64,000 nt of DNA, taken from IMG/VR virus record IMGVR_UViG_3300046459_000548, positions 28,200-92,199 of that record, one strand, 5' to 3'. The DNA is from a virus. The position numbers and the translations under genes were made by a program. Shown in pieces: positions 7,406 through 59,419 of this stretch. A model generated the notes under the pieces. The model was not told where the DNA came from, searched no databases, and was given only the letters and a program-made list of their open reading frames with translations. The first letter of the stretch is position 1; every line of letters starts with the position of its first letter.

Positions 7406-7431
7406 ACCACCGCAGACTCGGAGAGAACCGG

Positions 7432-9993
7432 ATGGCAACGCCGACCCTAACCAAGCCCGAAGCTAAGACCGAAGAGCCGCAGCAGGAACTCACTGGACTG
7501 CGCGCCCGCATGGAGCAGTCGATCAACCCCGGCCTGTACGTCGGCGCCGGGCTGGGCGTCGCCTCGGCGTACCTCACCGGCGACCCGCTGCTGCTGACCA
7601 CCGTCGGCGCCACCGGTGTCGCTGCCGGCTGGGCCGCGTTGGGCATGAACCCCGGCCCGTGGCGGTGGCTGCCCGGCCAGGGAGAGCCGTGGGAATGGAT
7701 GTGCCGCCGCAGCAACCGCAGCTACCGGCGCAAGGTCCGTCGGATGCGTATTCGGCTCGACTCCGACGCGCAGGCCGTCGCGGTCGGCCCGGGCAAGACG
7801 AAGCCGATCATCATCGGCGTCACCGACGGCTGGCGCACCCGCGACGACCGGCCGGAACTGGTCCGCGAGGCCACCGCCGAAGCCCACCGGGTCCGCTGCG
7901 CTCTCCTCCGCAAGGTGTGGGCGCAGGCGCTGCCGAACTGGAACTCCGGCTGGTGGCGCAAGTACACGGCCGCCGAGATGGCGCTCCGGGCCGGACCGCT
8001 TGCCGCAATCCCCGCCAGCGGATTCGTCGAGATGCCCTGGTGGGCACACCTCACGGTCGTCAGCATCGGAGCCGGCTGGGGATCCCGCACCTGGCACCGC
8101 CCCGCCCCCGCGGCCATCGACACGGCCGGCCCGAAGGGCGCCGACTGGTATGTGGCCCGCTGGGCGGAGTGGATCGCCTGCGAGCGAGGCCCGCTGCCCG
8201 ACTCCAAGCTGGCCAGTGTCGCCGTCGACGCCGACAAGCTCACCGCGATCATCGTGTCCACCACGGCGAAGCCGGCACTGTCCGTCGACCAGGACTCGAT
8301 CAGCATCGCGTTCGGGGTGCCGCCCCGGGCAGTGAACGTGTACCGGCCCGACGACATGGCCGCCTCCCGGGCCAAGCTGACGGTGCGGCTGCGCACCAAG
8401 GCCGCCGAGCTGGACATGGGCGATCTCGTGGCCGTCTGGGACGAGTACAGCCCCTACACGGGCAGCGAGCTGCACGAGCCGGAGAAGACCGAGTTCGGGC
8501 GCCGCTTCCAGCTGCTCATGCCGCGGAAGGGCTCTTCCGTCGCCGACGTGCAGCCGCGCGCCATTGCCCAGGCCCTAGACCTCAAAGGCGAAGACGCCGT
8601 ATCCCGCCTTCACCTGCGGGTCATCGACGCCCGCCGCATCGAGGTCAACGAGATGAGCACCAACCCGCTTCAGGGCGGCGTGGCGCTCGACCTGGATGCC
8701 CTGACCATGGACGACCAGGGCTACATCACGGTCGGCAAGGACATCTACGGCCGCCCGGCCAAGTGGCGGCTGCTGAAATTCGACCGCAAGCGCCGCGGCC
8801 TGTCCGGGCAGCCGTCCGCGTCCGCCGTGCACTCCTTCGGCTCCGGCACCACCGGCTCCGGTAAGACCAGCCTCGAAGAAGACCTCCAGGTCGCACAGCG
8901 AAAGAACGGCTTCATCTCCTGGCTCGCCGACGGCAAGGGCGGCGCCGGGTATGCCTCCTGGCTGACCGAACTCGACTGGCTCCTCAAGTCGCCCTACGGG
9001 GCGATGCTCATGGGGCAGGCAGCCAACTCGGTCAGCGAGTACCGGTTCGCCGAGCAGATGAAACTGCAGTGGCTCGACGACGAAGGCTTCACCGAGAACG
9101 GGCGCAGTTTCTTCGTCATGAACGACCCGTTCAAGCCCATGGTCTGCACGTGGGACGAGTTCAACGAGATGATCCTCAAGGACCCGACCGCGTTCCACGT
9201 CAAGCCGCTCCTGCGGTCCGTGTCCAGCATCGGACGCCTCTCCCGCGCCGCCGGGATGGCCGCCCGCGTGCTGCTCCAGATCCCCAACCTGGACTCGATC
9301 GGCTCAGACGCGTCCGCCAACGCCATCCGCGACATGCTGCAGTCCGGCAACATCGCGCTGTTCCGCACCGCCCGCTCCGACGTGGACCTCATGTCGCTCG
9401 GATCCCGGACCCCCGAGTTCCGGCTCGCCCCGCTGCTCGAGCGTTTCCCGGACGGCTCCGAGACCGGCGGCCTGTTCTACATCGCCGACGGCAAAGCCCA
9501 GTACACCGCCTCCCGGGCCATGTTCCACAGCAACCCCGCCCGCATCGCCCGCCAGTTCCCCCTGCATGCCATCAGCTGGCAGGAAGCCGACGCCGCCTGC
9601 AAGGCCGGGCCCGCCGGGCTCGCCTACCTGCGGCGCGACGAATACCGCAACCTCGACGCCGGCGACGAGGAGGCGTTCCTCCGCGAGCTCGTCGCCAAAG
9701 AGCAGGAGGGCAGCAAGAAGGGCAAGACCGTCATCGACGTCAAGCCCGCAGTGGCCGCCGAGGTTGATGACGACGACCTCGACGACCTTGTCCCGCCCAC
9801 CCGCTCGCAGCTCGTCTGGCACGCGGTCGACGGCGGCGCCCGCCGCAACAAGCAGATCGCCGAGGTCACCGACCTGACCCGCACCAACGTCGCCGGCGCA
9901 ACAGCCCGCCTGGAGCGCCTCGGCAAGCTCGCCAAGAAGGAACGTGACTGGCACACCGCAGAACCGCTCGACACCGCATCCATCAGCGCCTAA
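7432..9993 (+). CDS. tra: FtsK/SpoIIIE-type conjugal DNA translocase (Tra)
   Basis: An 853-residue septal DNA translocator of the Streptomyces TraB type, which moves double-stranded plasmid DNA between mycelia. The ATG at 7432 has GGAGAG upstream. Two hydrophobic segments near the N-terminus (~35-70, then ~190-215) anchor it. The motor domain has Walker A GTTGSGKTS at 472-480 and a Walker B-like MVCTWDEF with D575/E576. The last ~70 residues form a winged helix (SQLVWHAVDGGARRNKQIAEVTDLTRTNVAGATARL), equivalent to the clt-recognition domain of TraB proteins. Neighbours are Spd-like membrane proteins and a GntR regulator, the usual plasmid/AICE transfer set. Family is secure; activity is not tested. 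Confidence 0.9.
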   Translation: MATPTLTKPEAKTEEPQQELTGLRARMEQSINPGLYVGAGLGVASAYLTGDPLLLTTVGATGVAAGWAALGMNPGPWRWLPGQGEPWEWMCRRSNRSYRRKVRRMRIRLDSDAQAVAVGPGKTKPIIIGVTDGWRTRDDRPELVREATAEAHRVRCALLRKVWAQALPNWNSGWWRKYTAAEMALRAGPLAAIPASGFVEMPWWAHLTVVSIGAGWGSRTWHRPAPAAIDTAGPKGADWYVARWAEWIACERGPLPDSKLASVAVDADKLTAIIVSTTAKPALSVDQDSISIAFGVPPRAVNVYRPDDMAASRAKLTVRLRTKAAELDMGDLVAVWDEYSPYTGSELHEPEKTEFGRRFQLLMPRKGSSVADVQPRAIAQALDLKGEDAVSRLHLRVIDARRIEVNEMSTNPLQGGVALDLDALTMDDQGYITVGKDIYGRPAKWRLLKFDRKRRGLSGQPSASAVHSFGSGTTGSGKTSLEEDLQVAQRKNGFISWLADGKGGAGYASWLTELDWLLKSPYGAMLMGQAANSVSEYRFAEQMKLQWLDDEGFTENGRSFFVMNDPFKPMVCTWDEFNEMILKDPTAFHVKPLLRSVSSIGRLSRAAGMAARVLLQIPNLDSIGSDASANAIRDMLQSGNIALFRTARSDVDLMSLGSRTPEFRLAPLLERFPDGSETGGLFYIADGKAQYTASRAMFHSNPARIARQFPLHAISWQEADAACKAGPAGLAYLRRDEYRNLDAGDEEAFLRELVAKEQEGSKKGKTVIDVKPAVAAEVDDDDLDDLVPPTRSQLVWHAVDGGARRNKQIAEVTDLTRTNVAGATARLERLGKLAKKERDWHTAEPLDTASISA

Positions 9994-10006
9994 AGGAGAT
10001 CAACTC

Positions 10007-10234
10007 ATGACCATCGCTATCAGCACCCTGTTCTTCCTCGCCTGCGTCGGCATGGCCTGGTGGTTCAAGAAGGACTCCTCGTTCCGCCCCCGCGAGTTCA
10101 TCGCCGTCTCCGTGTTCTGGATCCTCCTCGTCGCCACCCCCTTCGGCGGCGGCCTCGTCGACAAGATGCAGACCGTGATCGGGAACAGCGCCCGGGCGGG
10201 CGTCGACAGCGTCAGCTCCGTCTCCAGCAAGTAG
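10007..10234 (+). CDS. Small two-helix membrane protein
   Basis: A 75-residue protein with AAAGGAGAT before the ATG. It has two hydrophobic helices (IAISTLFFLACVGMAWWF and FIAVSVFWILLVATPFGG) joined by a basic loop, and a polar C-terminus (VDSVSSVSSK). It sits 13 bases after tra, so a small Spd-like accessory of conjugative transfer is likely, from position only. Confidence 0.65.
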   Translation: MTIAISTLFFLACVGMAWWFKKDSSFRPREFIAVSVFWILLVATPFGGGLVDKMQTVIGNSARAGVDSVSSVSSK

Positions 10235-10243
10235 CCCAAGCCT

Positions 10244-10268
10244 GGCGGCCCGCAACCGGCGGGCCGCC
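10244..10268 (+). terminator. GC hairpin after the tra operon
   Basis: GGCGGCCCGC (10244-10253) pairs with GCGGGCCGCC (10259-10268), a 10-bp stem with a 5-base loop, starting ten bases after the stop of the small membrane protein. Confidence 0.6.
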
Positions 10269-10315
10269 TGCATCAACCAGACCCCGCGCCGCCTGGCCCG
10301 GAAGGAGCCCAGCCC

Positions 10316-10807
10316 ATGCCCGCACAGCCTGAGCCCACCGACCGGGCCGAAATCCAGAAGCTCGCCAACGCCGTCGAGGAGGCGCTCGCGGGGGAGATGC
10401 GGACCTCGTACCGCGACGACAGCTCCGACGTGCCGTCATGGCGGGACGGATCCCGCATCGGCACCACCCCGCCCGTTCAGCAGCCCGACAGCCGGATCGC
10501 ACCCCAGTGGGCCGTCGGCATCGCCGTCGCGTCCGTCGGCGTCGGAGCCGGCTCGACCGGCCTCGGCTGCGCGGCGTGGCTCCTCTTCAAGGGGCTGTCG
10601 CTCGTCAGCGTCCCGGGCCTCGAGCGATTCGCGCTCATCGTCATCGCCCCGTTCGCCGGTGCGGCCATGGTGGTCACCGCCATCGGCGCCGCAATCGGCA
10701 AAGCCCGGACCACGATCACCACCATCCACAACCACGGCCCGGTGGACCAGCGGGAGATCCACACTAAGACCACCGGCGTGTGGGCCAAAACCAACAACCA
10801 GCAGTGA
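10316..10807 (+). CDS. Membrane protein resembling the DUF6251 family
   Basis: A 163-residue protein with GAAGGAG upstream of the ATG. The N-terminal third is polar and contains a DGSRIGTTPPVQQPDSR stretch. Two hydrophobic segments follow (AVGIAVASVGVGAGSTGLGC and FALIVIAPFAGAAMVVTAIGA), ending in IHNHGPVDQREIHTKTTGVWAKTNNQQ. This arrangement is that of the Streptomyces family I know as DUF6251, found beside conjugative genes. The function is unknown. Confidence 0.6.
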   Translation: MPAQPEPTDRAEIQKLANAVEEALAGEMRTSYRDDSSDVPSWRDGSRIGTTPPVQQPDSRIAPQWAVGIAVASVGVGAGSTGLGCAAWLLFKGLSLVSVPGLERFALIVIAPFAGAAMVVTAIGAAIGKARTTITTIHNHGPVDQREIHTKTTGVWAKTNNQQ

Positions 10808-26314: not shown

Positions 26315-28978
26315 GTGCCTTGGAATGGCGGTACGCCCGAGCAGCCCTTTCCATCGCTGGGCCCGCAGATCGTCGAGCACATCGAGGAGTTCCTCTGCCA
26401 CGGCCCTGGCGACGTTGTCGGCGAGCCGATCGAACTGGACGATGAGTTCTACGCGTTCATCGTCAAGGCCTACCGTCTCGACCCGGAGACGGGCCGCCGT
26501 ATGTACCGGCGGGCGTTCCTGTCACGCGCGAAAGGGCGGGCCAAGTCGGAGATCGCCGGGATGCTCGTGTGCGCGGAGGCCCTGTTCCCGGTCCGCTTCG
26601 ACGGATGGGATGCGAACGGGGAGCCGGTCGGACGGCCGGTGAAGTCGCCGTTCATCCGCTGCCTGGCCACGGAAGAAGGCCAGTCGGGAAACACCTACGA
26701 CAACGTCTCGACGATGCTCGAGTATCTGGTCGAGAACCACGGTGACGACTTCCCGGGGATCGACATCGGCAAGTCGGCGCAGTCGTCGAGCCGGATCATC
26801 CTGCATCACCAGCGCGGCGAAATCACCCCGTCGACGGCGTCGTCTGCGGCGAAGGACGGCGGCAAGGAGACCTTCGCGGTGTTTGATGAGCCCATGGCTC
26901 TCGACACCCCCATACCAACCCCCGACGGCTGGAAGCAGATTGGCGACCTGAAAACCGGCGACTACGTCTACGGCGTGGACGGCCGCCCGATCCTCGTCTG
27001 GGGCGTAGCGCCGATCAAGCGCGATCGCCCCTGCTTCCGCGTGACCTTCGATGACGGCGCATCGGTGGTTACCGACGCCACTCACCGCTGGCACGTCTTC
27101 GACCGCAAGTCCACTAAAAAGTGGGCCGAGTGGACGACGCAGCAGATGGCGGACGCCAACTGGTACGGCGGCAAGCGGTTCGCCGTGGCGCAGGCTGCAG
27201 CGCTGGAAGCCGACGAAACGACGCTCCCGCTGGACCCGTATGTCCTGGGATTGTGGCTCGGCGACGGAGACGAGCGCGCTGCAACGCTCGCCGTGGGTCG
27301 CGACGACCTCGACGGCATGCTCGCAGAGCTTCACCGCGTCGGGTTCACGACCTCCGTCTACGACTACTCGGAAGATCGGGGCGCCGTCGCGGTCCGGTTC
27401 AACCACGGCCAGCGGTACGGCAAGAGCGGCACCTCGCAAGGCGCGCTGCGGGCGCTGGGAGTGCTGGAGAACAAGCATGCTCCGGACTCCTACCTATGGG
27501 CGTCCCGCGAGCAGCGCTTGGCGCTCCTGCAGGGCCTGATGGACAGCGACGGCTACGTCAACGAGCGCGGGAACTGCATCTTCACGAGCTCCTCGCGCGC
27601 CCTGGCGGACGCTGTTGTCCAGCTGGTGCGCTCGCTGGGCTGGCGCACGAGCGCAGGCCACTGGAGTTCGGACGAGCGCTGGAAGTCGCGGGTCACGGGA
27701 ACGTGGCGGGTCTCTTTCACGCCGTCAGGGATGGTTCCGTTCCGCATGAAGCGCAAGGCGGAGCGCTGCCGCCCGGTGGTCGCCGAGAAGACTCGGGCGA
27801 TCACGTCCATTGAGCCGGTGGAGTCGGTACCTGTCCGCTGCATCGCGGTGGACTCCGAAGATCACCTGTTCCTGGCTGGCGAGTCGATGCTTCCGACGCA
27901 CAACACGCACCTGTACGTGCTTCCGGAGCTGCGGCGCATGCACGGCACGGTCCGCCGCAACCTGCGGAAGCGCAAGGAAGCTGAACCGTGGTGCCTTGAG
28001 ACGTCGACGATGTACGAGCCGGGCCAGGACTCGGTGGCCGAAGCGACGCACACGTACTACAAGGCGATCAAGGAGGGGCGAGTTCGGGACGCGGACGCTG
28101 CCGGTCTCCTCTTCGATCATCGTCAGGCGAAGGACGGTACGGACCTCGCGGATCGTGACGCGCTCCTTGCTGGGCTCCGCGAGGCTTACGGGCCGGCCGC
28201 GGCCTGGATGGATCTGGACGGCATCGTTGCGGAGATTTGGGATCCGCAGTCGGCGCCTTCGGATTCGCGCCGGTACTGGTTGAACCAGCCGGTTGCGGCG
28301 GAGGATGCGCTGCTGGATCCGGCGGAGTGGGCGAAGTGTGCGTCGGAGCTTCGGCTCGAGGACGGCGACGACATCGTTCTCGGCTTCGATGGCGGCAAGT
28401 CGGATGACGCGACCGCGCTGGTCGCAATGCGGGTGTCGGACCGTCTCGTGCAGCCGCTGGGAATCTGGGAGCGCCCGGATGGTCCGCTGGCGAAGGGCTG
28501 GGAGGTCGACCGTAAGCAGGTCTCTGATCTGGTGGCGCATGCCTTCGGCCGCTACGGGGTGCGGGCGTTTTTCGCCGACGTGAAGCTGTGGGAGTCGTAC
28601 ATCGACGAGTGGACGGACACCTACCGGGATGAACTGTTGGCGAAGGCGTCTGCGAAGTCGCTGATCGGCTACGACATGCGGGGGCATCAGCAGGAGTTGA
28701 CGAAGGCGACTGAGGCGCTGGTGCAGGCGATCGCAGACGGCAAGCTCCCGCACACGAACCATCCGATCTTGAACCGGCATGTCGGCAACGCGCGGCGCCG
28801 GCCGAACCGTTTCGGCGTCAGCTTCGGCAAGGAGTCGCGTGAGTCGCCAAAGAAAGTGGACGGGTTCGCGGCGATGCAGCTGGCGGATATGGCGAGGCGG
28901 GCGCTGCTCGCGTCGTCTGAGTGGACGAAGCGGCAGAAGAAGCGGCAGCGGACGGGGCGGGTTCATGGCTTTGGGTGA
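26315..28978 (+). CDS. terL: Terminase large subunit interrupted by an in-frame intein
   Basis: An 887-residue precursor (GTG start after TAGGGGG). Exteins total 549 residues. The N-extein carries the ATPase with RRAFLSRAKGRAKSEIAGM and the Walker B strand ETFAVFDE (D191, E192). The C-extein resumes THLYVLPELRRMHGT and has the RNase H-like nuclease (DIVLGFDGGKSDDATALVA; later FFADVKLWESYIDEW). The intein spans residues 193-530 and sits exactly at the DE/TH junction of the ATPase site, so an unspliced protein should be inactive. TerL cuts concatemers and pumps DNA into proheads. It is followed by portal, as expected. Confidence 0.9.
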   Translation: MPWNGGTPEQPFPSLGPQIVEHIEEFLCHGPGDVVGEPIELDDEFYAFIVKAYRLDPETGRRMYRRAFLSRAKGRAKSEIAGMLVCAEALFPVRFDGWDANGEPVGRPVKSPFIRCLATEEGQSGNTYDNVSTMLEYLVENHGDDFPGIDIGKSAQSSSRIILHHQRGEITPSTASSAAKDGGKETFAVFDEPMALDTPIPTPDGWKQIGDLKTGDYVYGVDGRPILVWGVAPIKRDRPCFRVTFDDGASVVTDATHRWHVFDRKSTKKWAEWTTQQMADANWYGGKRFAVAQAAALEADETTLPLDPYVLGLWLGDGDERAATLAVGRDDLDGMLAELHRVGFTTSVYDYSEDRGAVAVRFNHGQRYGKSGTSQGALRALGVLENKHAPDSYLWASREQRLALLQGLMDSDGYVNERGNCIFTSSSRALADAVVQLVRSLGWRTSAGHWSSDERWKSRVTGTWRVSFTPSGMVPFRMKRKAERCRPVVAEKTRAITSIEPVESVPVRCIAVDSEDHLFLAGESMLPTHNTHLYVLPELRRMHGTVRRNLRKRKEAEPWCLETSTMYEPGQDSVAEATHTYYKAIKEGRVRDADAAGLLFDHRQAKDGTDLADRDALLAGLREAYGPAAAWMDLDGIVAEIWDPQSAPSDSRRYWLNQPVAAEDALLDPAEWAKCASELRLEDGDDIVLGFDGGKSDDATALVAMRVSDRLVQPLGIWERPDGPLAKGWEVDRKQVSDLVAHAFGRYGVRAFFADVKLWESYIDEWTDTYRDELLAKASAKSLIGYDMRGHQQELTKATEALVQAIADGKLPHTNHPILNRHVGNARRRPNRFGVSFGKESRESPKKVDGFAAMQLADMARRALLASSEWTKRQKKRQRTGRVHGFG
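26891..27904 (+). other. Class 3-like intein with LAGLIDADG homing endonuclease (inside terL)
   Basis: A 338-residue insertion between extein residues E192 and T531 of the precursor. Block A (ALDTPIPTPDGWKQIGDL) is preceded by Pro at position 1 instead of Cys/Ser. The WCT triad that defines class 3 inteins is present: Trp67 (TDATHRW, block B), Cys317 (PVRCIAVD, block F) and Thr336 before the terminal His337-Asn338 (PTHN). The +1 residue is Thr. Two LAGLIDADG-like helices are visible (YVLGLWLGDGD and ALLQGLMDSDGYV), so homing activity may remain. Splicing is predicted from these motifs, not tested. Confidence 0.88.
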
Positions 28979-51173: not shown

Positions 51174-51782
51174 CTAGTTCCAGCCGCCGAAGATGCCGCC
51201 GCTGAGCTGCGCGTTGCAGATGTTGTACCCACCCGAGGCGTGCCCGGACTTCGTCTTGCCGTCCACGGTCACCGAGCAGTGGATGTCGCCGCCGCCCTGC
51301 AGCTGGGCGGTGACGTTGTAGTACATGGCGTCGTCCTTCAAGGTCAGCGTCTTCGTCATCGGCAGGCCGTGACCCTGGATGCTGTCGGAGTCGCTGCCGT
51401 AGGTGATATCCACACCGGCCGACGCGCTGCCCCACACCTTGAACACCACCTTGTCCTTGGGCGCTTCGGCCTTCTTCGGCGTGGCCTTCACGGCGGCTGG
51501 CTTCGCAGTCTGCGTCACGGTGACCGTCGGGGCGGGCTTGGCGTTGCCTGCTGCGGCCGTTTCGGTGACGGTGACGCGCGGTGCGGGCTTCGCGTCGGCG
51601 GTCGTCTTCTGGTCGCCACCGGAGGAGCCGATGCCGACTCCGATGAACAGGATGACCAGGGCGGCGGGGATGGCGATCCGCTTGCGCGCCCACTTCGGGC
51701 GGCCGACGGGCTGCGGCGGCATCGGAGGCGGCGGCACCTGGCCCCAAGCGGGCCCGGACGGCGGCTGCTGGTTGTACGACAT
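51174..51782 (-). CDS. Membrane-anchored MmpS-like secreted protein
   Basis: A 202-residue protein; the ATG at 51782 has a GGGGGG site. A Pro-rich cytoplasmic N-terminus (MSYNQQPPSGPAWGQ) ends in PKWARKR, then one membrane helix (IAIPAALVILFIGVGIG), a Thr/Val/Ala-rich linker and a C-terminal beta domain (VVFKVWGSASAGVDITYGSD, YYNVTAQLQGGGDIHCSVTVDGKTKSGHASGGYNICNAQ) like MmpS-type proteins. It shares its promoter, leader and N-terminal design with the gene at 57091-57594. It may be a lysogenic or plasmid-state surface protein (inference). Confidence 0.75.
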   Translation of the reverse strand: MSYNQQPPSGPAWGQVPPPPMPPQPVGRPKWARKRIAIPAALVILFIGVGIGSSGGDQKTTADAKPAPRVTVTETAAAGNAKPAPTVTVTQTAKPAAVKATPKKAEAPKDKVVFKVWGSASAGVDITYGSDSDSIQGHGLPMTKTLTLKDDAMYYNVTAQLQGGGDIHCSVTVDGKTKSGHASGGYNICNAQLSGGIFGGWN

Positions 51783-51814
51783 GTGTCCCCCCAGGGATGG
51801 TTCGTGGAGGGATG

Positions 51815-51845
51815 ACCGTAACGGCGCAGGTGAGAAAAATGTAAG
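51815..51845 (-). promoter_or_regulatory. Predicted promoter of the MmpS-like gene (shared element)
   Basis: On the minus strand CTTACA (51845-51840), a 19-base spacer and TACGGT (51820-51815). About 45 bases from here to the ATG are closely similar to those before the gene at 57594, including CACGAACCAYCCYTGGGGGG. Confidence 0.5.
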
Positions 51846-51956
51846 AGCCACGGAGATACGGTGATGAAACCGTAACGAAATGTGAACCTTCAATGAATGT
51901 GCCCGCCCCCAGTACGAGAGCGGGGTGCTTGTGAGCTCGCGCGCGGGTGCCCAGCC

Positions 51957-53556: not shown

Positions 53557-53693
53557 CGTCGGCTTGCGTGCTCCGTCGCGAGCGTCCGGAAACGATCGTC
53601 TGTGTGACAGGACTCAGTCCGGGCACTCATCCTGGGGAAGCGCTGTAACGTAACTCGTGTACGCATCTATGTAACGCGCAACCCCCTTGCCGA

Positions 53694-53705: not shown

Positions 53706-54275
53706 ATGAGGATCGGCGTAGCGCGAGTCTCGACCCGAGACCAAAACCCCGAAGCCCAGCAGGACGCACTCATCGCAGCTGGCTGCGAACGCGTCTTCAC
53801 CGACAAGGCGTCCGGCAAGCTCGCCCGGCGCCCCGAACTCGACAAGGCCCTCATGGTCGCCCGCGAAGGCGACCAGCTCGTCATCACCAAACTCGACCGA
53901 CTCGGCCGCTCCCTGAAGAACCTCATCGAGCTGTCCGAAGAGCTCCGCTCGCGCGGGATCGGCCTAGTTGTCCTCGACCAGGGCATCGACACGGCGACTC
54001 CGGCCGGCCGCCTCTTCTTCCAGATCATCGGCGCTATTGCCGAGTTCGAGCACGCACTGATGTCGGACCGCACCCTGGATGGCCTTGAAGCGGCGCGAGC
54101 GCGCGGCCGGACGGGAGGCCAGAAGCCCAAGCTCGGCAAGCGTCAGATCAAGCTCGCGCAGCAGATGTACGACGAGACCGGCATCGACGGCAAGCGTAAG
54201 TACACCGTGCAGCAGATCGCCGACGAGTTCGGCGTTAGCCGGCCCACCATCTATCGCCACTTGGAGCGCGCATGA
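53706..54275 (+). CDS. Serine recombinase (resolvase/invertase family)
   Basis: A 189-residue small serine recombinase. Catalytic Ser9 is in GVARVSTRDQNPEAQQDAL; further landmarks are DKASGKLARRPELDKAL, LVITKLDRLGRSLKNLIEL and GRLFFQIIGAIAEFEHALMSDRTLDGLEAARARGR. The HTH at the C-terminus reads YTVQQIADEFGVSRPTIYRHL. It is of resolvase size, not a large integrase, so dimer resolution or inversion is more likely than integration. It is coupled to the following zinc-ribbon gene by ATGA. Confidence 0.92.
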   Translation: MRIGVARVSTRDQNPEAQQDALIAAGCERVFTDKASGKLARRPELDKALMVAREGDQLVITKLDRLGRSLKNLIELSEELRSRGIGLVVLDQGIDTATPAGRLFFQIIGAIAEFEHALMSDRTLDGLEAARARGRTGGQKPKLGKRQIKLAQQMYDETGIDGKRKYTVQQIADEFGVSRPTIYRHLERA

Positions 54276-55138
54276 CGAGCGGCCGGCCGGAACCATGGGA
54301 CGTGAGCACGGAAGCCGCCGTCCACATCAGCGCACTGATGGACCTGTTTCGCCAAGCATGCCGACGGCAGGGGTGGACGCTCGACGTGGAGCGCGGCCTG
54401 GTTGGCTGGACCGATGTCAGGTGCAGCGCCGGGCACGAATTCAGCGTCAGGGCGTGGGACCTCCTGTCCGTCCGCAAGCCCTTCGGGGGCGACCCGAGCG
54501 AGCCGTGGTGTAGGAAGTGCCGCAGCGTTGGCTGGGTCGCGGAGTGTTTGGCTGTTCTGAAGTCGGTCGCGGAGGCTCAAGGCGTAGAACTCACAGCCAC
54601 GGACGAGGACGACGAATCAAAGGAAGGCCACGTCGTGTTCGCGGCGGAGTGCTCGCAGGGACACCACTTCAGGACGACTGGGCCCAACGCGAGGGGCTGG
54701 CGCGGTGATCCGGTCGACGTCCTGTGCCCCGACTGTCGGCAGGCTGCTGCGTTCGCGGAAGGCTTCGCCAAAGCCGAGGCGGTAATCCGTGAGACTCGAT
54801 CCATGGTCGTGAAGGAGTACCGCAACGCCCTCGATATCAGGTGCCGCCGTGGCCACCCACACACGTTCCGCGTGGACGGCCGGATGGAACGTGAGGCGAT
54901 ACGGCCGGACTTCTGTGGCGCCTGCACCAAACTCGCCAAGTTCCAAGAGTTTTCCGAAAGAGCCAAGGATCTCGGCATCACCGTACTGGAGTCGCAGTGG
55001 ATAGCAGCGTCCCGTGCCCACCAGGCGGTCTGCTTCGCTGGGCACGAGTTCGGGCTCGTCCCGAACAAGATGAAGCGCGGGTGCCCCGAGTGCCCTCGGG
55101 GGATGTACGGCGGCGCCGTCCCACCTCACGACGTGTAG
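54272..55138 (+). pseudogene. 5' part of an IS-split zinc-ribbon / GIY-YIG-like gene
   Basis: A 288-residue frame that ends with TAG formed by the target duplication and the first IS base. It holds four copies of a C-x2-GH...C-x2-C unit: VRCSAGHEFSVRAW...WCRKC, AECSQGHHFRTTG...LCPDC, IRCRRGHPHTFRV...FCGAC and AVCFAGHEFGLVP...GCPEC. These resemble treble-clef fingers. Removing the insertion and one target copy joins this frame to 56565-57000 without a shift, giving 433 residues. The truncated product could still bind nucleic acid. Coupled to the recombinase by ATGA. Confidence 0.8.
55129..55137. repeat. Left 9-bp target-site duplication of the IS element
   Basis: CGACGTGTA at 55129-55137 recurs at 56556-56564, immediately outside the IS256-type element. 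Nine bases is within the usual range for this family. Confidence 0.85.
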
Positions 55139-56555
55139 AGTAATTGTCAAGACCTGTGGATCAGTTGAGGTGGATCACGCTGCGAAGGTCTCGTCTCGTT
55201 CGACGAGGAGGCCGTTCTCGAAGCGGGCGCCGGCTCGGACGAGGGCGACGAGGTGCGGTGCGGTGACCGCTCGCCAGCGGGCCTGGGCGGACTCAACGAG
55301 TTTGAAGACCATCGCGAGGGCCGCGGCCGGGCTGCCGGCGCCGCGGGTGACCTTGGTCCGAAGCTTCACGGTGGAGAAGGTCGACTCGATCGGATTCGTC
55401 GTCCTGAGATGGACCCAGTGCTCGGCGGGGAAGTCGTAGAACGCCAGCAGCTCGTCGACCTCGCCGGTGATCTTCCTGACGGCCTTGGGGAACTTCGCCC
55501 CGTACGCCTTCTCGAACGCGGTGACCGCCTTCTCGGCGTGCGCACGGTCCTCGGCGTTGTAGATCTCCTGCAGAGCCTTCTTCGCGCCGGGCTGCGCGGA
55601 CTTCGGCAGCGCGTTCGAGACGTTCCTTGTTTTGTGAACCCAACACCTCTGGTGCCTGGCCTGCGGAAACACCTCCGCCAGCGCCCTCCACAGGCCCATC
55701 GCACCGTCGCCGACCACGAGCATCGGGTCGCGCATCCCGCGACGTCGGCAGTCGCGCAGCAGGTCCGCCCAGGACTCGGTGGACTCGCGCAGACCCTCGG
55801 TGATCGCGATGAGTTCCTTGGTGCCGTCGACGCGGACGCCCATCAGGACCAGGAGGCAGGAGTGCGTCTGGGACAAGCGGATCTTGGGATGGACGCCGTC
55901 GGCCCAGACGTAGACGTAGTCGGATCCGGCCAGGTCACGGCGCTGGAACTCGGCGTGGTCGGCGGTCCACTGCTGCGTCAGCCGGGTCACCGTGGCCGGC
56001 GACAGCCCGGCCGAGGAGCCCAGGAACTGTTCCATCGCGGGCACGAAGTCGCCCGACGACAGGCCGTGGAGATAGAGCAGCGGCAGCACCTCGCTGATCT
56101 TCGGGGACTTCCGGCACCACGGCGCCAGGATCTTCGAGGAGAACCGCTGACGTTCACCCGTCGTCTCGTCGACCCGCTTGTCGTTCACGCGCGGGGCGGC
56201 CACCTCGATGGGCCCGGCAGCCGTGGTCACGGTCCGCGGCCGGTGCCGGCCGTTGCGGACCACCAGTCGGCGACCGGCCTCGTCACGCTGCCCGGCGAGC
56301 TCGGCTATGTACTGGTCCACCTCCGCCTCCAGAGCGGCGGCCAGCATCCGCCGAGCACCCTCGCGGACGATCTCGTCGATCAGGGAACCGGCCTCGGTGG
56401 TGCCGTCTTCATTGACTACGCTGAGCACGGGCGTGCCTTCCCGACCCGCGTTCGCAGCGCGGGCCTACTCGGTGACTTGACGATCACTCACTCGGGAAGG
56501 TACGCCCTTCGCGCGTCCTCCAGAGGAGCTGATCCACAAGTCCTGAGCATTGCTC
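55138..56555. mobile_element. IS256-family insertion sequence (1418 bp)
   Basis: The element is bounded by imperfect terminal inverted repeats of about 27 bp. The left end reads GAGTAATTGTCAAGACCTG then TGGATCAG; the right end, read inward, GAGCAATGCTCAGGACTTG then TGGATCAG (21-22 of 27 identical). It is flanked by the 9-bp duplication CGACGTGTA and contains one transposase gene on the minus strand. The intact duplication and near-intact gene suggest a recent insertion. Confidence 0.92.
55175..56428 (-). CDS. IS256-family (Mutator-type) transposase
   Basis: A 417-residue transposase with the DDE triad at D177 (YVYVWADGVHPK), D241 (LVVGDGAMGLWRAL) and E348 (RTTNPIESTFSTVKLRTK), and the C-x2-H element RCWVHKTRNV typical of IS256. 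Length and order match the family. It reads against the disrupted gene. There is no internal stop, so it is probably active. Confidence 0.93.
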   Translation of the reverse strand: MLSVVNEDGTTEAGSLIDEIVREGARRMLAAALEAEVDQYIAELAGQRDEAGRRLVVRNGRHRPRTVTTAAGPIEVAAPRVNDKRVDETTGERQRFSSKILAPWCRKSPKISEVLPLLYLHGLSSGDFVPAMEQFLGSSAGLSPATVTRLTQQWTADHAEFQRRDLAGSDYVYVWADGVHPKIRLSQTHSCLLVLMGVRVDGTKELIAITEGLRESTESWADLLRDCRRRGMRDPMLVVGDGAMGLWRALAEVFPQARHQRCWVHKTRNVSNALPKSAQPGAKKALQEIYNAEDRAHAEKAVTAFEKAYGAKFPKAVRKITGEVDELLAFYDFPAEHWVHLRTTNPIESTFSTVKLRTKVTRGAGSPAAALAMVFKLVESAQARWRAVTAPHLVALVRAGARFENGLLVERDETFAA

Positions 56556-56564
56556 CGACGTGTA
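56556..56564. repeat. Right 9-bp target-site duplication of the IS element
   Basis: CGACGTGTA, identical to 55129-55137. Confidence 0.85.
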
Positions 56565-57000
56565 CTACATCGTGAGCGGCTTGGACGCGAAGACCGGCAG
56601 GGGGACCGTGAAGCCTGGCATCAGCTCCGGGAGCGGCTACAACCGGCTGCGGCAGCACGCCGAAGACGGGCTGACCGTGCAGCACCTGCGGGTCTCAGGG
56701 TTGCCCGTCGGCATGGCGAGAGCGCTGGAAAGGTTCGTCCTGGACGGACTCGACAGTGAAGGATGGCTGTCCATCCGAGGTGTTGAGTACTTCCCAGTGG
56801 CAGCTCTACAAGACGTCATGGACTTGGTGGGCGAATGGTTCACAGATCAGCCTGGGCTTTGTGCCCGACCGTTCGTCGTTGACGTCGGCGATGTGTGCGA
56901 CCCCGGCGAAGCCCCCGAGGTGCATGATGTTGTGGATGTCGACGTTGACACCGCCGTGGTATTCGACTCCGACGACATCAGGCCTTCGCTGGCCTCATGA
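56560..57000 (+). pseudogene. 3' part of the IS-split gene: GIY-YIG-like domain
   Basis: A frame of 146 residues that can begin only at a GTG inside the target duplication, with no ribosome site. VYYIVSGLDAKTGRGTVKPGISSGSGYNRLRQH has the Y-x-Y...G-I-S layout of GIY-YIG nucleases and is followed by LPVGMARALERFVLDGL with a candidate catalytic Glu, and by YFPVAALQDVMDLVGEW. An acidic tail closes it. With the upstream fragment this formed one 433-residue gene. The GIY-YIG assignment is by eye and needs structural comparison. Confidence 0.65.
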
Positions 57001-57090: not shown

Positions 57091-57594
57091 CTACTTGTAG
57101 AAGACGGCCACGCCTCCATGGTGCGAGCAGGCGCCCTGGTGGTGCGCGGCGTAGGAGTAGGAGCCGTCATTACAGAGAGCGGTAGCGCCGTTTCCGGCAG
57201 CGCTGGAGCCGCCCGAGGAGCTTGAGCCGCCGCTCCCAGACGATCCGCCGGACGAACTGCTGCCGGAGCCGCTGACGGAGGCGGCTTTCGCGGTGACGGT
57301 CACCTTCACCTTGACCGTCTCCGTGGCGGTCACCGTCGGCGCGGGCTTCGGCGTCGCGGTCTCCGTCGCCGTGGCTGTCGCGGTGACGGTGGCGGCGGGC
57401 TGCACCTTGCTGGCTGCGGCCTTCGTGGTGTTGCTGTCCTGGCTGCTTCCGCCGGCGCCGATGCCGAGGATGAAGGCGAGGCCGATGGCGGGCAGCATGT
57501 AACGCTTCCGGCCCCACTTGGGTCTGGGCGGCTGCGGGGCAGGGGCGGCCGGGTACCCGTATCCGGGCGGTGGCGGCGGCTGGTTGTGCGACAT
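57091..57594 (-). CDS. Membrane-anchored secreted protein with DUF3761-like end
   Basis: A 167-residue protein; the ATG at 57594 has a GGGGGG site. Like the gene at 51174, it starts with a Pro/Gly-rich cytoplasmic tail (MSHNQPPPPPGYGYPA), then PKWGRKR, one membrane helix (LPAIGLAFILGIGAGG) and a Thr/Val/Ala linker. A Ser/Gly-rich spacer leads to ALCNDGSYSYAAHHQGACSHHGGVAVFYK, the conserved end of DUF3761. The two genes share leader and anchor but have different outer domains. Confidence 0.75.
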   Translation of the reverse strand: MSHNQPPPPPGYGYPAAPAPQPPRPKWGRKRYMLPAIGLAFILGIGAGGSSQDSNTTKAAASKVQPAATVTATATATETATPKPAPTVTATETVKVKVTVTAKAASVSGSGSSSSGGSSGSGGSSSSGGSSAAGNGATALCNDGSYSYAAHHQGACSHHGGVAVFYK

Positions 57595-57625
57595 GGTCCC
57601 CCCAAGGGTGGTTCGTGTTGGGGTG

Positions 57626-57656
57626 ACCGTAACGGGAAGTGTGAAGGCTGTGTGAG
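57626..57656 (-). promoter_or_regulatory. Predicted promoter of the DUF3761-like gene (shared element)
   Basis: On the minus strand CTCACA (57656-57651), a 19-base spacer and TACGGT (57631-57626), then a leader almost the same as that at 51782-51815. The spacing and hexamers equal those of the other copy. Confidence 0.5.
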
Positions 57657-57746
57657 TGGGGTGCACTGCCGGTGACACAGTTGTGACCGCGCGCGGCCGG
57701 GCGGATGATTCGGCCGGGGCCTGGTCCCGCAAACCGCTTCTGTACG

Positions 57747-58083: not shown

Positions 58084-58191
58084 AGCTGCCTCCTAATCCC
58101 GGGCTCATCCCGGATTCCCGCCCGCAATGGTTGGAGCAGATCCATCGGCCTCGGTTGTCCTGGTAGGCCCCGGCCCCGCAGTTCGGACAGT

Positions 58192-58497
58192 TCATCGTCG
58201 CGCCTCCCGCACGAGCCGGTACAGGCCGCGGCTGGTCCCGCACTCGCTCGCCTCGTCGACGCACTGCTCACAGAAGGGTGCGTGGGTGTACAGGGCTCGG
58301 CGGGCGCGATCGGCAACGCAGTCCGGGCAGGCGCGGGGAACCCCCTTTCGGGCCCTGCCGTTCGCTGCGAGCCGTGGGGCCCGCCGCTCCTCCCAGCTCT
58401 CCACGGGAGGCCATGCGGCTGTCCGGCCGTGCGAGTGCCGGACGGTGTGGGCGCTCGTAGGCTGGCCTTCTCGGGGCTCGTCGCGGAGGTCTGCCAT
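58192..58497 (-). CDS. Hypothetical protein with CxxC pairs, divergent to ku
   Basis: A 101-residue frame whose ATG at 58497 overlaps the ku ATG on the other strand. RACPDCVADRARRALYTHAPFCEQCVDEASECG gives a plausible four-cysteine zinc site. The overlapping divergent starts are unusual, so the true start may lie elsewhere. Moderately supported. Confidence 0.45.
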   Translation of the reverse strand: MADLRDEPREGQPTSAHTVRHSHGRTAAWPPVESWEERRAPRLAANGRARKGVPRACPDCVADRARRALYTHAPFCEQCVDEASECGTSRGLYRLVREARR

Positions 58498-59419
58498 GCC
58501 CCGAACCATCTGGTCAGGCGCCATCAGCTTTGGCCTGGTCACGGTGCCGATCCATGTCGTGAGTGCCACCGAGGATCACAGCATTCGCTTCCATCAGGTC
58601 CACCTCGACGACATGGCCCGCGTCCGCGTCCGGAAGTACTGCGAGCTCGAGGACCGCGAGGTCTCTCAGGGAGAGATCGGGAAGGGCTACGAGCTGTCCA
58701 AGGACACGATCATCCCGGTGCTCGACGAGGAACTGCAGCAGATGCCGCTGCCGACGGCGAAAGCGATCGAGCTAGTGGCGTTCATGCCGGCGGAGAGCAT
58801 CGACCCGATCCGGGTGGGCGACGGCTACTACCTGCAGCCGGACGGGCAGGTCGCGGCGAAACCGTACAAGCTGCTGGCGCAGGCGCTCGAGCGGTCATCG
58901 AAGGTGGCTGTCGCCAAGTTTGCCTGGTCAGGCCGTGAGCGCCTGGGTCTGCTCCGTGTCCGTGATGACGTGATCGTCCTGCATGCGATGCGCTGGGACG
59001 ACGAGATCCGCGACCCGTCCGAGCTGGCACCCGATGCGGTGGAGCTCACCGACGAGGAGCTCGCGGAGGCGGAGCGTCTCATCGACGGCTTTTCCCGCGA
59101 TGACCTGGAGGGCGAGGAGTTCATCGACCGGTACACGGAGGCGGTGGAACAGCTCATCGACGCGAAGCGGGAGCACAAGGAGCCGCCGCGGGCGGCCGAG
59201 GAGCCGGAGGCGCCGGGCCAGGTCGTCGACCTGATGGCCGCACTGCAGGAGTCTGTGGCGAAGGCGCGGGCGGGCCGCGGCGAAGACGCCACCGTGCACG
59301 AGATGCCGAAGAAGAAGACGGCGAAGAAGGCGGCAAAGAAGCGATCAGCCAAGACGATTCCGAGCAAGAATGCTGCACGCAAGAAGGCGGCCACGAAGAA
59401 GCCGCCGCGATCTGCTTGA
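58496..59419 (+). CDS. ku: Ku protein (NHEJ DNA-end binding)
   Basis: A 307-residue bacterial Ku homologue; GGAGG lies at 58484-58488 before the ATG. The Ku core opens RTIWSGAISFGLVTVPIHVVSATEDHSIRFHQVHLDD, with KYCELEDREVSQGEIGKGYEL, IVLHAMRWDDEIRDPSEL and DRYTEAVEQLIDAKREHK. A lysine/alanine-rich tail (~275-307) adds DNA affinity. Ku dimers hold double-strand ends for LigD; no LigD is in this window, so it would use the host's or serve to circularise injected linear DNA, as proposed for Ku of some mycobacteriophages. Confidence 0.92.
   Translation: MPRTIWSGAISFGLVTVPIHVVSATEDHSIRFHQVHLDDMARVRVRKYCELEDREVSQGEIGKGYELSKDTIIPVLDEELQQMPLPTAKAIELVAFMPAESIDPIRVGDGYYLQPDGQVAAKPYKLLAQALERSSKVAVAKFAWSGRERLGLLRVRDDVIVLHAMRWDDEIRDPSELAPDAVELTDEELAEAERLIDGFSRDDLEGEEFIDRYTEAVEQLIDAKREHKEPPRAAEEPEAPGQVVDLMAALQESVAKARAGRGEDATVHEMPKKKTAKKAAKKRSAKTIPSKNAARKKAATKKPPRSA

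Follow-up and report, generated by a model that had tools for sequence, protein, structure and literature searches.

What is a gene that joins four cysteine fingers to a nuclease-like end doing at the very stop codon of a phage recombinase? We pursued this question in a 64,000-nucleotide stretch of viral DNA (the window: positions 28,200 to 92,199 of the IMG/VR virus record IMGVR_UViG_3300046459_000548), where an intact serine recombinase (SR) gene is followed by a gene for a multi-finger, GIY-YIG-like protein, split in two. Our findings favor, with a probability that we put at about 0.6, a model where the split gene specifies a homing-type endonuclease that is free-standing and built like beads on a string, lies at a hot spot next to the recombinase and is inactivated here. 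Zinc binding, cleavage, target site and homing are all parts of this model that we infer.

A Probable Nuclease Gene Split by an Insertion Sequence

The features on which the model draws are the following (aa, amino acids; ORF, open reading frame; HTH, helix-turn-helix).

53706..54275 (+): intact serine recombinase of resolvase/invertase type, 189 aa (Pfam PF00239 Resolvase, 6.2e-43; HTH_7, 1.2e-7)
54272..55137 (+): nuclease gene, 5' part with four fingers, its start overlapping the SR stop (ORF 54272-55138)
54422..54520 (+): finger 1, CSAGH...CRKC, conserved in relatives
54650..54736 (+): finger 2, CSQGH...CPDC, conserved in relatives
54842..54925 (+): finger 3, CRRGH...CGAC, conserved in relatives
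55031..55093 (+): finger 4, CFAGH...CPEC, of the four the most like the repeats of array-type relatives
55129..55137 (+): left copy of a 9-bp target duplication, CGACGTGTA
55138..56555 (no strand assigned): IS256-family insertion sequence, 1,418 bp, with imperfect terminal inverted repeats, from the sequence
55175..56428 (-): IS256-family transposase, 417 aa (NCBIfam NF033543 (IS256), 3.9e-89; Pfam Transposase_mut, 1.1e-65)
56556..56564 (+): right copy of the 9-bp target duplication, CGACGTGTA
56565..57000 (+): nuclease gene, 3' part with the GIY-YIG-like domain and an acidic tail (from the ORF and the relatives' sequence)
56566..56787 (+): conserved nuclease residues (Tyr codon 56566, Lys of K-x-G 56611, Arg 56644, Glu 56728, Glu of EYF 56785)

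Together the two parts come to 1,302 nt, i.e. 434 codons with the stop (433 aa), the length at which an earlier, sequence-only reading of this DNA had reconstructed the gene while leaving the interrupting element unnamed. The same reading had placed the nuclease ATG over the stop of a small serine recombinase, and indeed the ATG (54272-54274) and the SR TGA (54273-54275) share an ATGA. IS256 elements leave target duplications of 8-9 bp, and the stretch 55138-56555 combines a transposase, terminal inverted repeats and a duplication of the expected length; another Streptomyces replicon bears the same element at 98.8% identity. The nuclease gene is thus inactivated in the window phage by an IS256-family element.

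When the halves were searched separately, the N half was matched in eight IMG/VR contigs and the C half in six, all among the eight, and plasmid CP108822, with a 430-aa protein, was found as well. In all nine (eight contigs and CP108822) the halves abut in a single open frame of 429-438 codons, according to the start chosen, and all nine keep the cysteines of the four fingers, the GH pairs and the C-terminal motif; the 5' part is 83% identical to the intact protein of L008. Since the two halves align with adjoining segments of a single intact ORF in which the motifs are conserved, the reconstructed gene is more than a product of chance. The fingers follow the form C-x2-GH...C-x2-C, with C..GH at aa 51, 127, 191, and 254 and C..C at aa 80, 152, 215, and 271 (ORF from 54272).

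A C-Terminal Domain Related to T5orf172

Judged by its sequence profile, the C-terminal domain is remotely yet clearly related to T5orf172 GIY-YIG nucleases. Tyr4, Lys19, Gly21, Arg30, and Glu58, at the core positions expected of GIY-YIG, are invariant in 25 aligned C-domains, and a profile of these 25 matches one of 10 T5orf172 domains from genomes of the phylum with a probability of 93.5% (E 2.3e-7), the alignment pairing Y, K-x-G, R, E, and the EYF/EWF motif; control profiles of HNH, SR, and Endonuclease VII proteins against the same C-domain profile reach 0.9, 0.1, and 0.1%. The four C-GH-C-C fingers with a GIY-YIG-like end, proposed from the letters alone, are in this way borne out. Among 28 relatives, Pfam yields matches below cut-off to MUG113 in three (best 0.0065) and to T5orf172 (PF10544) in two (best E 0.0021); as the curated cut-off is not reached, we term the domain related to PF10544 rather than a member of it. 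Each of the 28 scanned relatives has a match to PHROG 681 "endonuclease", and 27 of them also have one to PHROG 559 "HNH endonuclease", names that are annotation-based: 559 is called HNH, yet HNH is absent from the Pfam families listed for the relatives.

Predicted models of an array protein (L047) and of L008 both show a strand-strand-helix-strand-helix arrangement, in the order E-E-H-E-H-(E)-H. The former has a mean predicted local distance difference test score (pLDDT) of 87.9, with local values >80 in the C-domain; the latter has a mean of 77.5 and a mixed C-domain, 69-92 in the core. For L047, VIA-align places UPF0213 (1zg2), which we take to be GIY-YIG, second, at Z 4.0 and a root-mean-square deviation of 5.5 over 72 residues, level with unrelated matches; for L008 no GIY-YIG structure was recognized among the 50 matches listed. 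With either model all VIA-align matches listed have Z < 5, and the structure searches did not reliably identify a known fold. Sequence searches of the PDB gave no relevant match.

Genome and virus collections yielded further relatives of greater divergence, and of 392 Streptomyces genomes searched with a profile, 21 have a match, a sporadic distribution. Many relatives carry 2-7 tandem modules, each of ~57-60 aa and of the form F...G..vLe..W.g...h.v.C..GH...P......G.C..C, ahead of the same C-terminal domain; window finger 4 is clearly of this kind. One 7-module protein with CapR-like repeats (L026) matches Pfam CapR (PF21817) at 1.5e-17, over the cut-off. The architecture itself is a known protein type: in Barth 2023 (PMC10448857), the T5orf172 homing genes bear one or several zinc-finger modules, the CapR-like fingers being their DNA-binding parts. 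Elsewhere in the family, the same C-terminal domain sits on a different, finger-free N-terminal part (L017, L020, L022), and three 799-aa Streptomyces chromosomal proteins (L085, L086, L088; frames 223-2610) have zinc-ribbon-like cysteine modules flanking a GIY-YIG core like that of the C-domain. One Streptomyces acidicola contig holds an identical nuclease protein twice, ~90 kb apart (L023, L024).

A Slot for Three Nuclease Superfamilies

What else stands at this position? SR relatives fetched from IMG/VR comprise 14 of type A, 26 of type B, and 8 of type C. At the SR stop of types A and B we found 8 GIY-YIG, 7 Endonuclease VII, and 4 HNH genes, i.e. a nuclease in 19/40 loci (39 distinct, L140 and L141 being the same), which is not an unbiased rate since the short search patterns derived from nuclease-carrying loci. 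The GIY-YIG protein is carried by 3 type A, 5 type B, and 1 type C loci (8/40 for A and B; 1/8 for C). By Pfam, the seven Endonuclease VII ORFs match PF02945 at E 4.6e-11 to 1e-17, and the four HNH ORFs have best E values of 6.8e-7 to 2.1e-6. All 19 nuclease frames start in an NTGA overlap with the SR stop. In the 32 type A and B slots that lack a GIY-YIG protein, Pfam was applied to 20 ORFs at or near the slot; the remaining loci either offered no clear ORF or were not included (L113, L116, L120-L124, L127 (scanned, no match), L131, L141 (copy of L140), L143, L146, and L147). Elsewhere in the 40 loci no homologues of the three slot nuclease sets were found with the slot proteins as queries, by which other subfamilies could be missed.

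Seen from the nuclease side, HNH relatives have an SR in front in 4/5 cases, all four among the known slot loci, and Endonuclease VII relatives have a same-strand SR just upstream in 5/80 kept loci; a fourth SR lineage is found in L169, with an Endonuclease VII protein. On the label tree, weakly resolved with 18/38 inner branches open, the label is weakly clustered (17 changes vs. a shuffled mean of 19.1, and as low in 16/200 shuffles). The three-superfamily nuclease slot behind phage serine recombinases is the new element here; no description of it was found in the literature searched, most subscription journals lying beyond the reach of that search. In L114 and L118 (4567-5049) the slot holds a 160-aa protein without Pfam match, macro-domain-like by eye. 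L164 (1665-3561) encodes an HNH protein 71% identical to a slot HNH protein; in place of an SR, a tyrosine-recombinase match lies two genes ahead of it, weak and below cut-off (PF00589, 4.1e-4).

Exchange at the Slot

The occupants change behind recombinases that hardly differ. The SRs of L136, followed by a GIY-YIG gene, and L139, followed by an Endonuclease VII gene, are 97.5% identical, and similar superfamily swaps occur for L117/L115 (96.3%) and for L145 vs. L148/L149 (~93%). Occupied and nuclease-free forms of the slot also coexist: homology of L125, L126, L136, and L145 with L140/L141 extends to the SR end, where a nuclease gene stands against a small HTH gene, and restarts with L141 ~10 bp past the nuclease stop, and in L131 no gene overlaps the SR stop. 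This presence and absence is as expected of a free-standing homing gene. The near-identical phages L010 and L015 differ in the SR (of type B or type A), in the region upstream of it, and in nuclease codons 1 to ~120; past these codons the nuclease is mostly 97-100% identical. Between L099 and L100, a 1.5-kb nuclease block at 97.5% is the sole homology in 12 kb, in unrelated contexts. In its behavior the nuclease gene is thus mobile and dispensable, alternating with unrelated nucleases at one spot, and this suggests that selfish nuclease genes use the slot as a landing site.

Linkage to the Recombinase

Nucleases of the window's subtype (KPG type) have an adjacent SR in 14/19 distinct loci, so that the conserved recombinase linkage anticipated by the sequence-only reading holds when intact relatives and their neighbors are considered. 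SR positives from a second-round profile, which is impure, were rechecked with the first profile, and second-round negatives were kept. In 10 of the 14, an open SR frame lies upstream and the nuclease start overlaps its stop; in L016 and L035 the SR lies 43 bp downstream of the nuclease, not upstream; in L097 and L100 a truncated or frameshifted SR stands beside an open nuclease frame. The five KPG loci without SR are L029, L095, L096, L098 (no resolvase by Pfam, and no SR confirmed by the clean SR profile), and L099, which retains the last 22 SR codons and whose nuclease copy, on a Streptomyces chromosome, adjoins genes that Pfam calls Cas3-like and Cas5d (7425-10631). Nucleases of the KFG/KIG type have an SR in 0/30 distinct loci, several of whose flanks end at contig ends.

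The SR-nuclease linkage is therefore real, yet it is no evidence for a dedicated partnership: most SR relatives lack this nuclease, unrelated nucleases share the slot, and some copies have no SR. The suggestion that the two proteins act together on DNA did not gain support on these grounds, the nuclease being present in the minority of type A, B, and C loci counted above. The start-stop overlap may mark the least harmful landing place, or may aid expression.

The Recombinase and Its Upstream Sites

The window SR consists of a resolvase catalytic domain (3-135), with its catalytic serine at Ser9 in RVST, followed by a C-terminal HTH (138-186), an order that places it in the resolvase/invertase type; it matches PHROG 125 "DNA invertase" at 1.5e-64. 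Two conserved motifs precede it.

53582..53605 (+): type A site 1, a 24-mer upstream of the SR, putative recombinase-binding or operator site (sequence conservation)
53654..53676 (+): type A site 2, second conserved motif upstream of the SR (2 mismatches to the L004/L007/L015 consensus)

L004, L007, and L015 share the same 24-mer, of which the window copy differs by 4 mismatches; type B SRs have conserved upstream motifs of their own, other than those of type A. Beyond these motifs the carrier phages are mostly unrelated. The motifs resemble resolvase-binding or operator sites.

Is the SR then an invertase, an integrase, or part of a known transposon? Type A SRs are ~51% identical to enterobacterial phage invertases and in this resemble DNA invertases of the Hin/Gin/Pin type, but the upstream motifs of both types occur once per locus, site 1 is single in the entire 92-kb record with <=6 mismatches allowed, and no invertible segment was seen; as the site was found just once, there is no sign of an invertase switch. 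Each of 10 carrier records holds one SR, and 8 of them also a tyrosine-integrase match (7 over cut-off; that of the window's record below), which makes a role of the SR as integrase unlikely. With IS607, a serine transposase accompanied by the TnpB nuclease, the locus shares a small serine recombinase overlapping a nuclease gene. In IS607, however, the HTH is N-terminal to the catalytic domain and the partner is TnpB; the window SR has the resolvase-like order and a GIY-YIG-like partner, and the locus is not an IS607 element.

Homing and the Alternatives

Under the homing model, the tandem zinc fingers would bind DNA and the C-terminal GIY-YIG-superfamily domain would cut it. The slot exactly behind the SR stop codon would be occupied in turn by several unrelated homing-nuclease families; a resident nuclease would cut related phage genomes without the nuclease gene near their SR locus, and recombination after the cut would copy the gene with some flanking sequence. 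In the window phage, the IS256-family element has broken the gene. This is the economical explanation because all three superfamilies include known homing enzymes and T5orf172 homing genes bear zinc-finger modules. T5orf172/GIY-YIG and HNH homing enzymes are described in PMC10448857, and PMC6083498 describes F-CphI, a homing endonuclease with an Endonuclease VII motif, which belongs to the superfamily of the slot Endonuclease VII proteins and is unrelated to the GIY-YIG protein. The T5orf172 homing endonucleases with CapR/DUF723/DUF4379 repeats of ICP1 and other phages resemble the window family in joining a GIY-YIG-type domain to one to many zinc-finger modules, in being free-standing, and in their hot spots and domain swapping (PMC10448857). 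They differ in that the window family is found in Streptomyces, has a domain below the T5orf172 and MUG113 Pfam cut-offs, and sits behind a serine recombinase, whereas the sites given in that paper are terminase, ribonucleotide reductase (RNR), and replisome genes. Of homing, site-specific cleavage, and defence, all put forward from the letters alone, homing is the best supported.

Several observations weigh against this model. The window protein has no nuclease family over cut-off in Pfam and NCBIfam, and Foldseek with the L047 and L008 models gave no match at E <= 0.001. The slot also houses non-nuclease genes (HTH proteins in L138 and L140/L141), unknown proteins, or nothing clear. The swaps show exchange, not nuclease cutting as its driver. 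The SR linkage in 14/19 KPG loci fits a working partnership as well, in which the slot nuclease would assist the SR, e.g. through cleavage of rival or unresolved DNA where recombination takes place, any of the three superfamilies sufficing. Such a partnership would accommodate the contrast with the KFG/KIG loci (0/30), the NTGA overlap of 19/19 slot nucleases, and the involvement of at least three SR lineages (types A, B, and C, with L169 and its Endonuclease VII protein as a fourth), but 21/40 SR loci have no nuclease of the three families, the nuclease occurs without SR in L095, L096, L098, and the HNH locus L164, the SR lies downstream rather than upstream in L016 and L035, and the SRs of L097 and L100 are truncated or frameshifted while the nuclease frame is open; we consider it unlikely. 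A more speculative variant, by analogy, would have the pair as a spreading unit, its exchangeable nuclease (GIY-YIG with fingers, HNH, or Endonuclease VII) translationally coupled to the SR and cutting at or near the SR's own site or empty alleles. In IS605/IS607 elements TnpB aids persistence, and here unrelated nucleases would play that part; we find this rather improbable.

A nuclease might instead be kept as a help to its carrier, and not through its own spread, by cutting competing phages, plasmids, or satellites. Zinc-finger T5orf172 proteins turned to phage-satellite conflict are described in PMC10448857, and the variable repeat number of array-type relatives suggests changing targets. 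Such exclusion seems rather doubtful for a gene tied to one slot and broken in the window, beside which no defence-type neighbors were shown (no PADLOC scan was made). That the protein is a domesticated or non-catalytic DNA-binding protein, repressor-like as CapR, might be argued from the fingers, which make up its larger part, and from the CapR-like repeats of L026; the invariance of Y, K-x-G, R, and E across 25 domains makes this very improbable. Homing thus keeps our preference. With it, modular zinc-finger homing nucleases, a class already known, find a place in Streptomyces phages, and the SR stop codon emerges as a specific locus at which three or more unrelated homing-type nuclease superfamilies interchange behind almost identical recombinases. 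The slot permits a direct test of whether hot spots are due to nuclease cutting targets or to service to the adjoining gene, and the arrays of 2 to 7 fingers offer natural material on repeat number and DNA recognition.

The Window Phage

The 92,199-bp record that includes the window belongs to a tailed phage, as indicated by its terminase, portal, protease, major head protein, and tape measure, and Streptomyces holds relatives of this phage; among named phages, DNA relatives of window positions 40000-64000 were limited to a tape-measure stretch. CP108822 is a phage-plasmid by its annotation (ParA, capsid, terminase). Such a reading was rejected for the window: just 3/18 CP108822 proteins match it and a ParA (AAA_31) match was found in 0/15 virus records, so the window represents another phage lineage. 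Behind the nuclease gene, a small DUF3761 protein (3.2e-8) is encoded at 57091-57732 (-), part of which is similar to the product of 51174-51893 (-). About 1.1 kb downstream of the nuclease gene lies a gene for a Ku-like DNA end-binding protein (58127-59419 (+); PHROG 4873 at 2.4e-63), and Ku-like frames also come after the SR in some SR loci (e.g. L113, L156, and L158).

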